Program-made: the position numbers and the translations under genes
DNA from: Chloroflexi bacterium 13_1_40CM_65_17
GTDB taxonomy: Bacteria > Chloroflexota > Dormibacteria > Dormibacterales > Dormibacteraceae
DNA: 64,000 nt
Assembly (NCBI GenBank): GCA_001917815.1
Contig: MNES01000081.1
Coordinates: 1 to 64,000, forward strand
Reading direction: 5' to 3'
The notes under the pieces: generated by a model
Seen by the model: only the letters and a program-made list of their open reading frames with translations
What the model was told of the DNA's origin: nothing
Databases searched by the model: none
Part shown: piece after piece, positions 16,119 to 56,652 of the stretch
Layout: the number at the start of each line of letters is the position of its first letter
Numbering within the stretch: the stretch's first letter is position 1

Positions 16119-16955
16119 CTAGGTCAGGCGAGGTTCGGGGCGCCAGCGGCCGTCTTCCTCGAGATACCCCGCCGGCTGATCGGGCTCGTGGCTCAACACG
16201 AGCAGCCATCGATGCTTTTGCGCCTCGTCAAGCAGCCTCGCTTTCTGCTCCAGCACGCGTAGCGGCTCGATGTCGGCCGACATCGTCCACGGGACGCGGA
16301 GATGCGGCGTCTGGCAGACGAGGTCGCCGGTCACCGCGCATGCGAGCTCGCCCGACCGCAGCACAAGCACCTGGCTGCCGGGCGTGTGCCCGCCGACATG
16401 ACGGATGTGGACGCCAGGCATCACCTCACCATCACCGTCCAGGAACTCCACGAGGTTGTTTCCGTCCGCCAGCGGAGTGAAGTCGTCCGTCAGGTACGCG
16501 GACTGGCTGCGCATGTCCGGACTCAGAGCGAAGTCCCACTCACTCCGCTGAATGAAATGGCGCGCCTTTGGAAACGTCAGCTCGAGGCAACCGTCGTCCC
16601 ACCGCGTGAGGCCGCCGGCGTGATCCCAATGCAGGTGGGTAGTAATCACCGCATCGACCTCATCCGGTCTAATGCCGAGCCGGCGCAGTGAGTGGAGCAG
16701 TCCTTCGGGCTCGCGCAGCACGACCTGCAGCGCGCGCTTCTCGCTCAGCTTGGTGCCAATGCCCGTCTCGCAGATGATGACCCGTCCATTGATCCGCGCG
16801 ATCAGAGCGACGCAGGCCATGTCGATCATGTTCTGTCCATCGGCGGGCTTCTGCTTTTCCCAGAGCACTTTGGGAACGACCCCGAACATCAATCCACCAT
16901 CGGCCTTCCATCTCCCCGCGATGAGCAGGTGCAACTCCAGGTCTCCCAGCCTCAT
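16119..16955 (-). CDS. MBL-fold metallohydrolase
   Basis: TTHLHWDHAGG motif, GHTPGSQ, GDLV. Confidence 0.88.
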   Translation of the reverse strand: MRLGDLELHLLIAGRWKADGGLMFGVVPKVLWEKQKPADGQNMIDMACVALIARINGRVIICETGIGTKLSEKRALQVVLREPEGLLHSLRRLGIRPDEVDAVITTHLHWDHAGGLTRWDDGCLELTFPKARHFIQRSEWDFALSPDMRSQSAYLTDDFTPLADGNNLVEFLDGDGEVMPGVHIRHVGGHTPGSQVLVLRSGELACAVTGDLVCQTPHLRVPWTMSADIEPLRVLEQKARLLDEAQKHRWLLVLSHEPDQPAGYLEEDGRWRPEPRLT

Positions 16956-16977
16956 GGCTCACTAATATGCAGCGGCA

Positions 16978-41472: not shown

Positions 41473-42842
41473 TAGTGAATGTGGGGTCGGCGGCCGCTCC
41501 ACGGCCGGGCCTGCTCGAGCTGGGAGGCCAGGCTGAGGATGAGCGCCTCGCCGCGAGGTGGCCCCACCAGCTGGACCCCGATCGGAAGCCCCGCTGAATC
41601 GACCCCGAGCGGCAGGGAGATCGCGGGCTGGCCGGTGCAGTTATACGGGTAGGTGAACGAGACGAAATCCATGTACTCGTCGCCAGCGGATGCGAGGTCT
41701 GCGCCCAGGGTGTTGAGGCGCGGCGCGGTTCGCGGCAGCGTCGGGGTGACGAGAACATCGTGCGTGTCCCAAAAGCCCACGACCACGCGGCTGTGCATCC
41801 GGATAGCGTCGACCGAGCGGACGTAATCGATCGCGGACAGCTGCCTCGCCAGTGCGAGACCCAAAGCATTGAAAGGCTCGAGCTTGCTCTCATCGCTGAT
41901 CGGCAGCGAGCCGAGGCCGGCCACGACGACGAGCTGCATCGGTGTGCGGAACGGCTCGGTGTCGGGCCCGCCTTCCGTCACACGATGGCCGAGGCCCTCC
42001 AGCAGCCTCGCGACCTCTCGCACGCAGCTCGCCACCTGATCCTCAACGTTCGCGCTGGAACGAACCGTGAAGCCGATGCGCAGCTTGCGATCGGTGGGTG
42101 TCGCCGAGTCGGCAAACCTGCCGTCGGTGTCAGACCAGTACGCATCGCCGGGTAAGTGTCCAACCATCGCGTCCAGGCCGGCCGCCGCGTCGGCGACCGT
42201 CCGGGCGATCGCTCCGTCGGTCGACAGGCCTGCCCAATGCTCACCGAGGAGCGGACCCGCCGAGATTCGACCCCGTGAAGGCTTGAGCCCGACCGTTCCG
42301 CAGCAGCTCGCTGGGATACGGACCGAACCGCCCCCATCGGTCCCGTGCGCGAATGCGCAGAGCCCGGCCGCCACCGCTGCGGCCGCGCCGCCACTGGATC
42401 CACCCGCGGAATGGTCCGGGTTCCACGGATTGTGCGTCGGACCGAAAAGGCCATGCTCGACCGTCGGTCGGGTCCCAAATTCCGAAAGGTTGGTCTTGCC
42501 CAGAATCGGACAGCCCTCTTCCTTGATGCGGGCAACCGGAAAGAAATCCATCGGCAAGGTGTAGTCCTCGAACGCCCGGGATCCAAACGTGATCGGGTAT
42601 CCGGCGAGGGACACGTTGTCCTTGATGGATGTTGGCACGCCGCGCAGCGGATATCCGATGTTCGCCGCGTCCGCCGCCTTGGCCTGCTCGAGCGCAAGCT
42701 CGGGCGTGGTCAGGACGTATGCATTGAGCCTGGGATTGAGCCGCTCGATTCTCTCGATGTACGCTCGGGTGAGCTCTGCCGAAGACACCTCGCGCCGGCG
42801 AACGGCCGCGGCCTGGTCAAGCGCGGATGCGAATGGATCCAT
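41472..42842 (-). CDS. amidase (amidase signature family)
   Basis: GVPTSIKDNVSLAG, NPWNPDHSAGGSSGGAAAAVAAGLCAFAHGTDGGGSVRIPASCCG. Confidence 0.95.
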   Translation of the reverse strand: MDPFASALDQAAAVRRREVSSAELTRAYIERIERLNPRLNAYVLTTPELALEQAKAADAANIGYPLRGVPTSIKDNVSLAGYPITFGSRAFEDYTLPMDFFPVARIKEEGCPILGKTNLSEFGTRPTVEHGLFGPTHNPWNPDHSAGGSSGGAAAAVAAGLCAFAHGTDGGGSVRIPASCCGTVGLKPSRGRISAGPLLGEHWAGLSTDGAIARTVADAAAGLDAMVGHLPGDAYWSDTDGRFADSATPTDRKLRIGFTVRSSANVEDQVASCVREVARLLEGLGHRVTEGGPDTEPFRTPMQLVVVAGLGSLPISDESKLEPFNALGLALARQLSAIDYVRSVDAIRMHSRVVVGFWDTHDVLVTPTLPRTAPRLNTLGADLASAGDEYMDFVSFTYPYNCTGQPAISLPLGVDSAGLPIGVQLVGPPRGEALILSLASQLEQARPWSGRRPHIH

Positions 42843-43839
42843 GGCCGTTAATGGTGCCGATTCTTACCGCGGGGTAGGGAGAGGAGGCCAGCGCGCCCTC
42901 GAATGCCGCGGCGTTCTCGGGCGGAATGGCGGCGAGGATGCCACCGCTGGTCTGGGCGTCGCAGAGCATCAGCTGGTCGAGCTCTGGAAGGCCGCCCCAA
43001 TCGACCTGGTTGCGGAATGCATCGTGGTTGCGCCGGCTTCCCGCGGGAAAGAGATTCCGCTGTGCAAGGTCGCGAACCCCGTCGAGGAATGGCACCGCCC
43101 GCATTTCGATGTCCGCACCTCCGGTCAGGTTGCTCAGGTGTCCGATCAGTCCATAACCGGTGACGTCGGTGGCCGCGGTCGCGCCGGCTTCGAGCATCGC
43201 CTCCGACGCGCGGCGGTTGAGCATCGACATGACTTCGACCGCCTCGCGCTGCAGCGCAGGAGGGCAGAGCCCGCGTTTGATCGCGGTCGCGACGAGGCCG
43301 GACCCCAGCGGCTTGGTGAGGAACAGCACGTCACCCGCGCGCGCTCCCGCGTGGGCGACGATGCGATCCGGGTGGACCTCGCCGATCACCGCATAACCGA
43401 ACTTCGGCTCCGGGTCATCGACGGAGTGCCCACCCACGACCGCAATCCCGGCCTCGGCCATCTTTTTCGCGCCGCCGGCGACGATCTTCTCGAGCAGGCC
43501 GGTGCTCAGCTTCTCCCGCGGGAAGGCCGTGATGCCGAGGGCAAAGAGTGGCCTTGCCCCGACTGCGTAGACATCGCTGACGGCGTTGGCCGCGGCGATG
43601 GCGCCGTAATCGCTGGGGTCGTCGACGATGGGCGTGAAGAAGTCCACCGTCGCAACGAGTGCGCGATCGGGCGCGATTCGATAGACCGCCGCATCATCTC
43701 GTGATGACGTCGCGGTCAGAACATTGGGGTCGATGATCGGGGGCAACGCCCCGAGAACCTGCCCTAGCTCGCTAGGGCTGAGCTTGCAGGCTCAACCGGC
43801 CCCGTGGCTGTACTCCGATAGTCGCAGTGGCTGCTCCAT
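42817..43839 (-). CDS. selD: selenide, water dikinase, predicted selenoprotein with Sec encoded by in-frame TGA at 43792-43794
   Basis: Manual translation from ATG 43839: [15 protein letters not shown][TGA][39 protein letters not shown]..., aligning with SelD YSHGAGCGCK motif; downstream VDFFTPIVDDPSDYGAIAAANAVSDVYAVGARP. Confidence 0.92.
43761..43794 (-). promoter_or_regulatory. candidate bacterial SECIS: in-frame UGA followed 13 nt later by a perfect hairpin
   Basis: UGA-GCCUGCAAGCUCA-GCCCUAG[CGAG]CUAGGGC; 7-bp stem, CGAG loop 21-24 nt after the UGA. Confidence 0.75.
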
Positions 43840-43860
43840 TGGTGCTAAGTATCACGAGAC

Positions 43861-54401: not shown

Positions 54402-55511
54402 TCAGCCGAAATCGAGCCCGTGGACCTCGCTGAGCGTCCGGAGGTCCTTGCGCAGAGCCGCCCGCACGCGGTCTTGCACCTCGGCGGCGGGAAGCGGGCT
54501 CGAAGGATCGTTCAGATCCGCGGCCAGGTCCGGGCGCTCGACCATCTCGGCGAAGAACAGCGTCCAGGCCCGTGGCACCACCTCGTAGATCGCGTATCCC
54601 CCACCCCCCAGCGCCAACCACCGGCCTTCGCACAGCTCATGCGCGAGCTCGTGAAACAGCTTTCCTACGCGGGGCCAGATGCGAGTGCTCGCAGCGAGAT
54701 GCGCGAGCGGGTCGAGGTAGTGCGTGTCACAACCATCCTGGGTCACCAGCACCGTGGGCTTGAACCTCCGCAGCAGCGCCGGCACCACCTTCTCCAACCC
54801 CTCGAGCCATGGTTCGTCCCACGCGAACGGCATGAAGGGCAGGTTTGCCGCGGCGCCTTTCCCTTTCCCCGTCCCCGAGTCCTGCGGAAATCCGGTGCCT
54901 GGAAACAGATAGCGCCCGCTTTCGTGGAGGCTGATCGTGAGCACGTCGGGGTCCGAGTAGAAGATGTCCTCGACGCCGTCGCCGTGGTGGACGTCGACGT
55001 CTACGTATGCAACGCGGTGACCGCGGTCCTTAAGCCATTGGCAGGCGATCGCGGGATCGTCGTACGTGCAGAAGCCCGAGGCGCGAGCACGATGTGCGTG
55101 GTGCAGCCCACCCGACGGGCTGAACGCATGAAGCGCAGCTCCGCTCTCGACGGCCTCCGCACCGATGAGCGTGGCGCCGACCACCAGGGCCGCCCCCTCA
55201 TGCAGCTCATCGGAGATGGGATTGTCGGCGGATGCGAATCCGGCAGCATCAACCAGGTCCGGCGGCACACGCCCGCGCTGAGCAGGATCGCTCAGCTTTC
55301 GGACCAGGTCCACGTACTCCGCCGAGTGCACGAGCTGAAGCTCTGCCAGCGCTGCGCTTCGGGGCGGTATGAGGTGCGCGTGTTCGATGAGCCCGGTCGA
55401 ACGGATGAGCTCCACGGCCAGCTTGACGCGAATCGGCTGCAGCGGATGTTGGTCCGAAAGGCGGTGCTTCATCAGCTCCTCGCCGTACACGAGTGCCACC
55501 GCTCCGGGCAT
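54402..55511 (-). CDS. histone deacetylase / acetoin utilization (AcuC-like) family protein
   Basis: HPLQPIRVKLAVELI, GGLHHAHRARASGFCTYDDPAIAC, VAYVDVDVHHGDGVEDIFY, TQDGCDTHYLDPLAHL; start corrected to 55511. Confidence 0.93.
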   Translation of the reverse strand: MPGAVALVYGEELMKHRLSDQHPLQPIRVKLAVELIRSTGLIEHAHLIPPRSAALAELQLVHSAEYVDLVRKLSDPAQRGRVPPDLVDAAGFASADNPISDELHEGAALVVGATLIGAEAVESGAALHAFSPSGGLHHAHRARASGFCTYDDPAIACQWLKDRGHRVAYVDVDVHHGDGVEDIFYSDPDVLTISLHESGRYLFPGTGFPQDSGTGKGKGAAANLPFMPFAWDEPWLEGLEKVVPALLRRFKPTVLVTQDGCDTHYLDPLAHLAASTRIWPRVGKLFHELAHELCEGRWLALGGGGYAIYEVVPRAWTLFFAEMVERPDLAADLNDPSSPLPAAEVQDRVRAALRKDLRTLSEVHGLDFG

Positions 55512-55533
55512 GGCCTCGTAGGCTAACAGGCGC

Positions 55534-56652
55534 ATGGATCCCCACCAGCTCTTCGAATCCGTGCCCAACTTCTCCGAGGGAAGCCGTGCCGACGTCATCG
55601 CTGAGCTTGCCGGCGCCGCTGCCCCTGCGCACGTCCTCGATGTCGACGCGGACGCCGACCACAATCGCGTTGTGATTTCGCTCGCAGGCGAGGGACATCA
55701 CCTGCTCGATGCGCTGATGGCATCGGTCCAGGTGGCGATCGACCGCATCGACCTGAACGATCACGTCGGCGTGCATCCGCGAGTCGGTGCGGCCGATGTC
55801 ATTCCGATCGTGCCGCTGGGCGGCGCCACGATCGCGACTGCCCGCGACCTCGCACATCGGCTGGGAGAACGAATCTGGTCGGAGCTTCACGTGCCCGTCC
55901 ACTACTACGGCGACGGCGAATCGCCCACCCTGGCCGACATTCGCGCGGGTCGCCAGAGCCCGATCCTCGGCGGCCCCGAGCTCCACGTCTCCGCCGGGGC
56001 GATCTCTGTGGGTGCCCGGCGCCCGCTGCTGGCCTTCAACGTCCTGCCGGCCGGGATGGACATCACCGGGGCGCGCGCCCTGGCTCGGTCATTGAGAGAG
56101 TCGGCCGGCGGTCTTCGCGGCGTCCAGGCGCTGGCGTTCGAGCTCTCTCGCGGACGCGTCCAGCTGTCAATGAACCTTTTCCGGCTCGAGGAGACGCCGC
56201 CGGCCGCGGTGGTGGCTGAGCTGGAGCGACGTGGCGTCACGATCGCTGCGCAGCAGGTGATCGGACTCTGCCCGGCCGCGGTGGCGAACGAGGCCGCAGC
56301 CGGCCGTCTCCTCGAAGCCCGACTGGCCGCCGCCGCATCGCGGCGCGGCGCGGCGCGGTGCGCGGCGCTGGGTGACGCCGAGCACATCAAGCTTGCAGGC
56401 CGGCTGGAGCGCGAGGCGGACAGCATCGCCCGCATGGGCATCGGCCAGGGTGAGCTCCTCGGAGGCGCCGAACGTGCGGCGGCGCTTGTTCCGGTTCTCA
56501 AAGCGGCCGGTGTCCTCGGCTCCGAGCTCGAATCGATGCTGGACATCGCGGCGCGCGGCCTGCGGACCGCGCTGCATCCCGAAACGCTGAAGCGACATGC
56601 AGCTCGGACCGACGCCCTGGATCGCCGGCTGAAGACGGCTGGAAACGCCTAG
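55534..56652 (+). CDS. glutamate formimidoyltransferase-like protein (FtcD N-terminal family) with extra helical C-terminus
   Basis: LFESVPNFSEGSRADVIAEL, DADADHNRVVISLAG, LNDHVGVHPRVGAADVIPIVPL, ILGGPELHVSAGAISVGARRPLLAFNV. Confidence 0.9.
   Translation: MDPHQLFESVPNFSEGSRADVIAELAGAAAPAHVLDVDADADHNRVVISLAGEGHHLLDALMASVQVAIDRIDLNDHVGVHPRVGAADVIPIVPLGGATIATARDLAHRLGERIWSELHVPVHYYGDGESPTLADIRAGRQSPILGGPELHVSAGAISVGARRPLLAFNVLPAGMDITGARALARSLRESAGGLRGVQALAFELSRGRVQLSMNLFRLEETPPAAVVAELERRGVTIAAQQVIGLCPAAVANEAAAGRLLEARLAAAASRRGAARCAALGDAEHIKLAGRLEREADSIARMGIGQGELLGGAERAAALVPVLKAAGVLGSELESMLDIAARGLRTALHPETLKRHAARTDALDRRLKTAGNA

Follow-up and report, generated by a model that had tools for sequence, protein, structure and literature searches.

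How both members of a divergent gene pair can be transcribed out of a spacer of 22 bp is the question raised by the locus described here, where a gene for a histone deacetylase-like protein (HDAC) and one for a glutamate formimidoyltransferase-like protein (FTCD) start back to back. The source is a soil MAG of Candidatus Dormiibacterota, its named relatives being soil MAGs of Candidatus Dormiibacterota / Chloroflexi; the assembly (84% complete, 98 contigs, 2.52 Mb) has a GC content of ~65% (~35% AT) in the part of the genome analysed. The window, i.e. the whole stretch of DNA that was analysed, is 64,000 nucleotides long and contains two other compact divergent pairs, indicated as pairs 1 and 2, while the HDAC/FTCD pair is indicated as pair 3 (Table 1). 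The evidence collected from the sequence suggests that divergent transcription of the two genes is probably driven by a symmetric box within the spacer, almost without an untranslated leader.

Table 1. Features of the HDAC/FTCD locus and spacers of the two comparison pairs, in window coordinates.
Feature	Position	Strand	Description and basis
Intergenic spacer, proposed bidirectional promoter	55512..55533		22 bp, GGCCTCGTAGGCTAACAGGCGC, read directly; orthologous spacers conserved
Shared symmetric core TAGGCTA (TANNNTA)	55519..55525		26/26 family orthologs; enriched in compact divergent spacers
Predicted -10 hexamer TAGGCT, formimidoyltransferase gene	55519..55524	+	Sequence and genome-wide TANNNT peak
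Predicted -10 hexamer TAGCCT, HDAC-like gene	55520..55525	-	Sequence and conserved 8-nt spacing
Histone deacetylase-like (AcuC/HDAC superfamily), 369 aa	54402..55511	-	Hist_deacetyl PF00850, E 1.1e-78
Glutamate formimidoyltransferase-like, 372 aa	55534..56652	+	FTCD_N PF07837, E 5e-40; FTCD PF02971
Pair 1 spacer, 22 bp, core TAATATG (16963-16969)	16956..16977		Metallo-beta-lactamase-fold (-) / ABC ATPase (+)
Pair 2 spacer, 21 bp, core AAGTATC (43847-43853)	43840..43860		selD (-) / LigB-like (+)

Direct reading of the spacer confirmed to the letter what the first-pass annotation had described: TAGGCT, on the plus strand, ends 9 nt before the ATG at 55534, and TAGCCT, on the minus strand, 8 nt before the ATG at 55511. 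Both hexamers are contained within the TAGGCTA core, in which TANNNT is legible on both strands and the -11A of each strand pairs with the -7T of the other. The shortness of the spacer is not an artefact of start choice, since the FTCD frame is closed by a TAG stop at 55519-55521, 15 nt upstream of the ATG with no intervening start codon, the HDAC frame is closed by an in-frame stop 6-12 nt upstream of the start in 23 of 28 orthologs (identity of at least 75%), and the HDAC M1 is invariant in an alignment of 19 sequences.

The first T of the hexamer is located 15 bp (+) and 14 bp (-) from the start codon, in agreement with the spacing of leaderless genes, where TANNNT is found near 12 bp. A check for Shine-Dalgarno sequences revealed just AGG at -7 to -5 on the plus side; on the minus side GAGG is present here, 2 nt before the ATG, and most orthologs contain AAGTGGCC or similar instead. 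A strict 7-nt register places a C at 55531 (+) and a C at 55513 (-), where, for starts 18 bp apart, a +1 purine (T at -18 of the other strand) is expected, while with discriminators of 8-9 nt the purine at +1 would be the A of each ATG.

Conservation of the core among family relatives

The divergent arrangement of FTCD and HDAC is found in most members of the family; HDAC-like orthologs are 75-88% identical, and the formimidoyltransferase shows 57-73% identity across family relatives with the compact pair. The set used to evaluate conservation comprised 26 distinct family orthologs, with an HDAC identity of at least 75%. TANNNTA is present in all 26 orthologous spacers, where the six specified bases of TANNCTA-N-C are invariant, while middle bases and flanks vary. 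As a control, 29 fourfold-degenerate HDAC sites were evaluated, which show a mean pairwise difference of 0.56, none of them being invariant. Judged from these alignments, the spacer core is under strong selection. HDAC homologs from two other families of the class were also considered as controls, and were unusable, being just 31-38% identical (full listings).

On the HDAC side, 24 of the 26 orthologs have 8 nt between the core and the start codon and the remaining 2 have 9 nt, while on the FTCD side this distance varies from about 8 to 10 nt. Such a near-invariant spacing on one side is in line with a box used in the HDAC direction alone, with the formimidoyltransferase promoter located inside the HDAC gene and the symmetry of the core arising as a by-product of ANNNT self-complementarity. 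The outer A of the core, which corresponds to the -12T of the opposite strand, is however invariant in the 26 orthologs, a point taken up below with the genome-wide counts. Conservation of this second half-site could also come from one direction alone, if the base after TANNNT matters otherwise.

In four more distant genera (L163, L165, L166, L168) hutI, coding for imidazolonepropionase, is located between HDAC and FTCD. The core of these relatives is TACTCTA, and the HDAC GTG is 6-8 nt away from it; L166 and L168 have exactly 6 nt between the core and either GTG codon, hence a start-to-start distance of 18 bp, while the plus-strand start of L163 and L165 is at least 15 nt from the core, which again favours use of the box by HDAC only. 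The symmetric, putatively bidirectional core is kept across the family regardless of whether hutI or FTCD is the gene on the plus strand, and this argues that its two-way use has been selected, rather than being a mere by-product of the symmetry of a -10 element. The hutI neighbour occurs in genera g5, g7, g10, g12, g13 and g14; the others, source genome included, are devoid of a close homolog. In genera without hutI at this position, the source genome among them, FTCD adjoins the same promoter core in its stead.

Compact divergent spacers across the genome

Genome-wide counts cover about 2.17 Mb of the 2.52 Mb, with genes called by codon usage. Two of the three window pairs were placed wrongly by our gene caller, because of an alternative HDAC ATG at 55535 and of a UGA in selD; for this reason, counts based on start positions were made anew from motif-blind, motif-aware and hand-checked starts.

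A TANNNT peak is found 6-10 nt before start codons in all gene classes, and is strongest at divergent genes. Within divergent gaps <200 bp, TANNNT occurs at 6, 7, 8, 9 and 10 nt with frequencies of 7.3, 7.6, 5.6, 5.6 and 2.3%, and beyond 12 nt mostly at <1% per position. A conserved -35 element or consensus accompanying TANNNT was looked for genome-wide and not found. A TANNNT peak free of a -35 element matches the published signature of leaderless genes (PMC3160421, PMC3898074). The frequent occurrence of TANNNT 6-10 nt before starts, with no -35 consensus, suggests that many genes of this genome may be leaderless.

The symmetric TANNNTA has a density of 3.24/kb in divergent gaps <60 bp and of 1.23/kb in longer ones, compared to 0.38/kb for tandem and 0.29/kb for convergent gaps; 11 occurrences were observed in divergent gaps <60 bp, compared to 3.15 in dinucleotide shuffles. 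The central TANNNTA enrichment anticipated by the first-pass annotation was recovered: among the 10 divergent spacers of 17-23 bp defined by motif-blind starts, 4 contain a centred, shared TANNNTA (shuffle mean 0.08) and 8 contain TANNNT or ANNNTA (shuffle mean 0.71), neither count being matched in any of 20,000 shuffles. By using motif-aware starts and adding the two hand-checked window pairs, the corresponding figures are 7/15 for the centred motif and 12/15 for at least one hexamer. Divergent spacers of 24-30 bp yield 0/10 and 1/10, respectively, and upstream of directional starts both halves are found in 1.4% of windows and one half in 15.8%.

These counts bear on the possibility that chance and genome compaction are responsible, any AT-rich 22-mer in a short, AT-richer spacer looking alike. 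TANNNT is indeed short, and compact divergent spacers are 43% AT, compared to about 35% genome-wide, but composition-matched shuffles contain 0.08-0.11 centred TANNNTA against the 4-7 seen, and the motif is conserved by orthologs, so that this explanation is extremely improbable. TANNNT is followed by A in 9-11% of directional promoters and in 53% of cases in 17-23 bp divergent spacers, the latter figure counting both sides of each pair (per-pair Fisher P = 0.006). Since the outer A is rare in directional promoters, and yet invariant in the HDAC/FTCD orthologs, and since compact divergent spacers are enriched for it as a class, use of the box in the HDAC direction alone is weakened as an explanation and appears unlikely. 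As a separate observation, directional promoters seem to shun A directly after TANNNT, and in tandem and convergent gaps TANNNTA falls below shuffle expectation, as if two-way firing were disfavoured by selection.

The conserved core may also be regarded as a transcription-factor operator, with half sites TTA/TAA, controlling both genes, and an imperfect palindrome TTANNNTAA is in fact present in many orthologs. Its symmetry does not extend past TTANNNTAA, though, and its central bases vary (GGC, CGC, CCC, ACC, CTC). Moreover, TANNNTA is found at promoter spacing also between unrelated pairs, such as gltX/peptidase-like, dehydrogenase genes and transporters. An operator is rendered very unlikely by the presence of the core also at unrelated gene pairs, with differing central bases.

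The compact class is small. Spacers of 17-23 bp separate 10 of 220 divergent pairs when motif-blind starts are used, and 15 pairs with motif-aware starts and the two hand-checked window pairs, compared to a median of 101.5 bp for divergent gaps. The three compact spacers noticed within 64 kb are present, but they overstate the density of the class, which amounts to about 15 in 2.17 Mb. The sharp peak at 21-22 bp predicted at first was not supported, 4-6 pairs being found against about 2.3 expected. Only a broad, weak excess is seen at 19-22 bp, corresponding to 9 pairs against 4.2 with motif-blind starts (P 0.03) and 11 against 4.3 with motif-aware ones (P 0.005); inclusion of the two hand-checked window pairs raises it to 13 against 4.3, with a P of 0.0006 which is biased because hand-checking covered window pairs only. 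Of the initial suggestion of a preferred divergent design, the shared symmetric promoter is strongly supported, but it concerns only 10-15 of 220 divergent pairs: the compact, shared-box design does exist as a class, but only a minority of pairs follows it.

Proposed mechanism and relation to known promoters

The spacer most likely works as one bidirectional sigma70-type promoter, with reciprocal -11A/-7T, yielding two nearly leaderless mRNAs. TANNNTA would be a housekeeping (sigma70-type) -10 element, offering TANNNT on either strand, to which a single RNA polymerase at a time would bind, in one orientation or the other; we infer two-way transcription and mutual exclusion of the polymerases. 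Each transcript would begin either at the A of its ATG or 2-3 nt upstream. Predicted starts are at 55531-55534 (+) and 55513-55511 (-), with leaders of 0-3 nt, so that the HDAC-like and formimidoyltransferase mRNAs would be leaderless or nearly so, and presumably translated as such. Since the hexamers are 8 and 9 nt from the starts, 2-3 nt over the perfect leaderless spacing, short leaders are as likely as none. Any -35 element would have to overlap the initial codons of the divergent partner.

With slightly more doubt than trust, it may further be proposed that Dormiibacterota possess a conserved class of double-leaderless promoters, made of 17-23 bp spacers with one symmetric -10 box, where each RNA polymerase binding event would choose between two proteins and the coupling itself would be selected at many loci.

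Work on bidirectional promoters reportedly goes back to a 2021 paper in Nat Microbiol by Warman, Grainger and co-workers. Such promoters are defined by starts 7-25 bp apart, and a bound polymerase excludes a second one; in E. coli and Salmonella divergent starts are most often separated by 18 bp, because at this spacing -11A and -7T coincide reciprocally, while 10 and 23 bp are also common (PMC10268837, PMC12825309). The symmetric -10 element with reciprocal -11A/-7T is found here as well, as TAGGCTA and in 26 orthologs, and the predicted starts, 18 bp apart or up to 23 if located at the ATGs, are within the 7-25 bp range. Unlike the promoters described by those authors, the present one is predicted to produce two nearly leaderless mRNAs, from an intergenic region containing little beyond the shared -10 element; its core is TANNNTA and not TATAAT-like, and it belongs to a phylum outside their studies.

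In the leaderless, TA-led genes of Actinobacteria and Deinococcus-Thermus, TANNNT lies some 12 bp upstream of the start codon, without a conserved -35 or any need for a Shine-Dalgarno sequence; a 2011 survey of 4 Chloroflexi genomes put the share of leaderless genes at about 4.7% (PMC3160421, PMC3898074). The source genome looks richer than that, though judged by other means than those of the survey, and single genes were dealt with in those studies, whereas here one box would serve two. Ordinary divergent pairs with separate promoters likewise consist of two genes facing apart, but the present spacer is too short for two -10 elements and their leaders, and holds one core for both.

Our literature search, which was incomplete, found no work on leaderless and bidirectional promoters combined, or on Dormibacterota promoters. 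This kind of element is already known, while its conserved double-leaderless version in the phylum appears undescribed in the literature searched. As far as found, Dormiibacterota promoters are unmapped; the sequence yields a testable promoter consensus and a start-codon rule for the phylum.

The two comparison pairs in the window

The start codons are at 16955/16978 in pair 1 and at 43839/43861 in pair 2, and the HDAC/FTCD geometry had been proposed to recur at both (~16.96 and ~43.85 kb). Their compact spacers, of 22 and 21 bp, are real, but a strict TANNNTA is present, in the source genome, in pair 3 only, pairs 1 and 2 having a reciprocal ANNNT core. The ANNNT centre is common to the three pairs, with -11A and -7T reciprocally paired between the two directions, and in most orthologs its distance is 8 nt to the start on the minus strand and 6-9 nt to that on the plus strand. 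This geometry exceeds chance, being almost never obtained from shuffled spacers and conserved in orthologs.

For pair 1, 8 divergent orthologs show spacers of 19-24 bp and CTAATATGC-like cores; the AT core is kept in all 8, and the exact ANNNT in 6, its register being lost in L202 and L203. The core is absent from plus-strand homologs lacking a divergent partner. For pair 2, a (T/A)AGTATC core is kept in 7 orthologs with a compact spacer of 19-26 bp, relatives carrying TAGTATC.

The selD gene of pair 2 (42817-43839, minus strand) contains an in-frame UGA at 43792-43794, codon 16 (HGAGUACK), which is read through, so that selD itself encodes a selenoprotein. The U is retained in 10 of the 11 compared sequences, source included, and replaced by Cys in one (L223). 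Standard ORF calls put the selD start at 43746, missing the true one. The in-frame UGA of LigB-like orthologs was also checked as a possible selenocysteine codon, and mostly corresponds to ordinary reading-frame ends.
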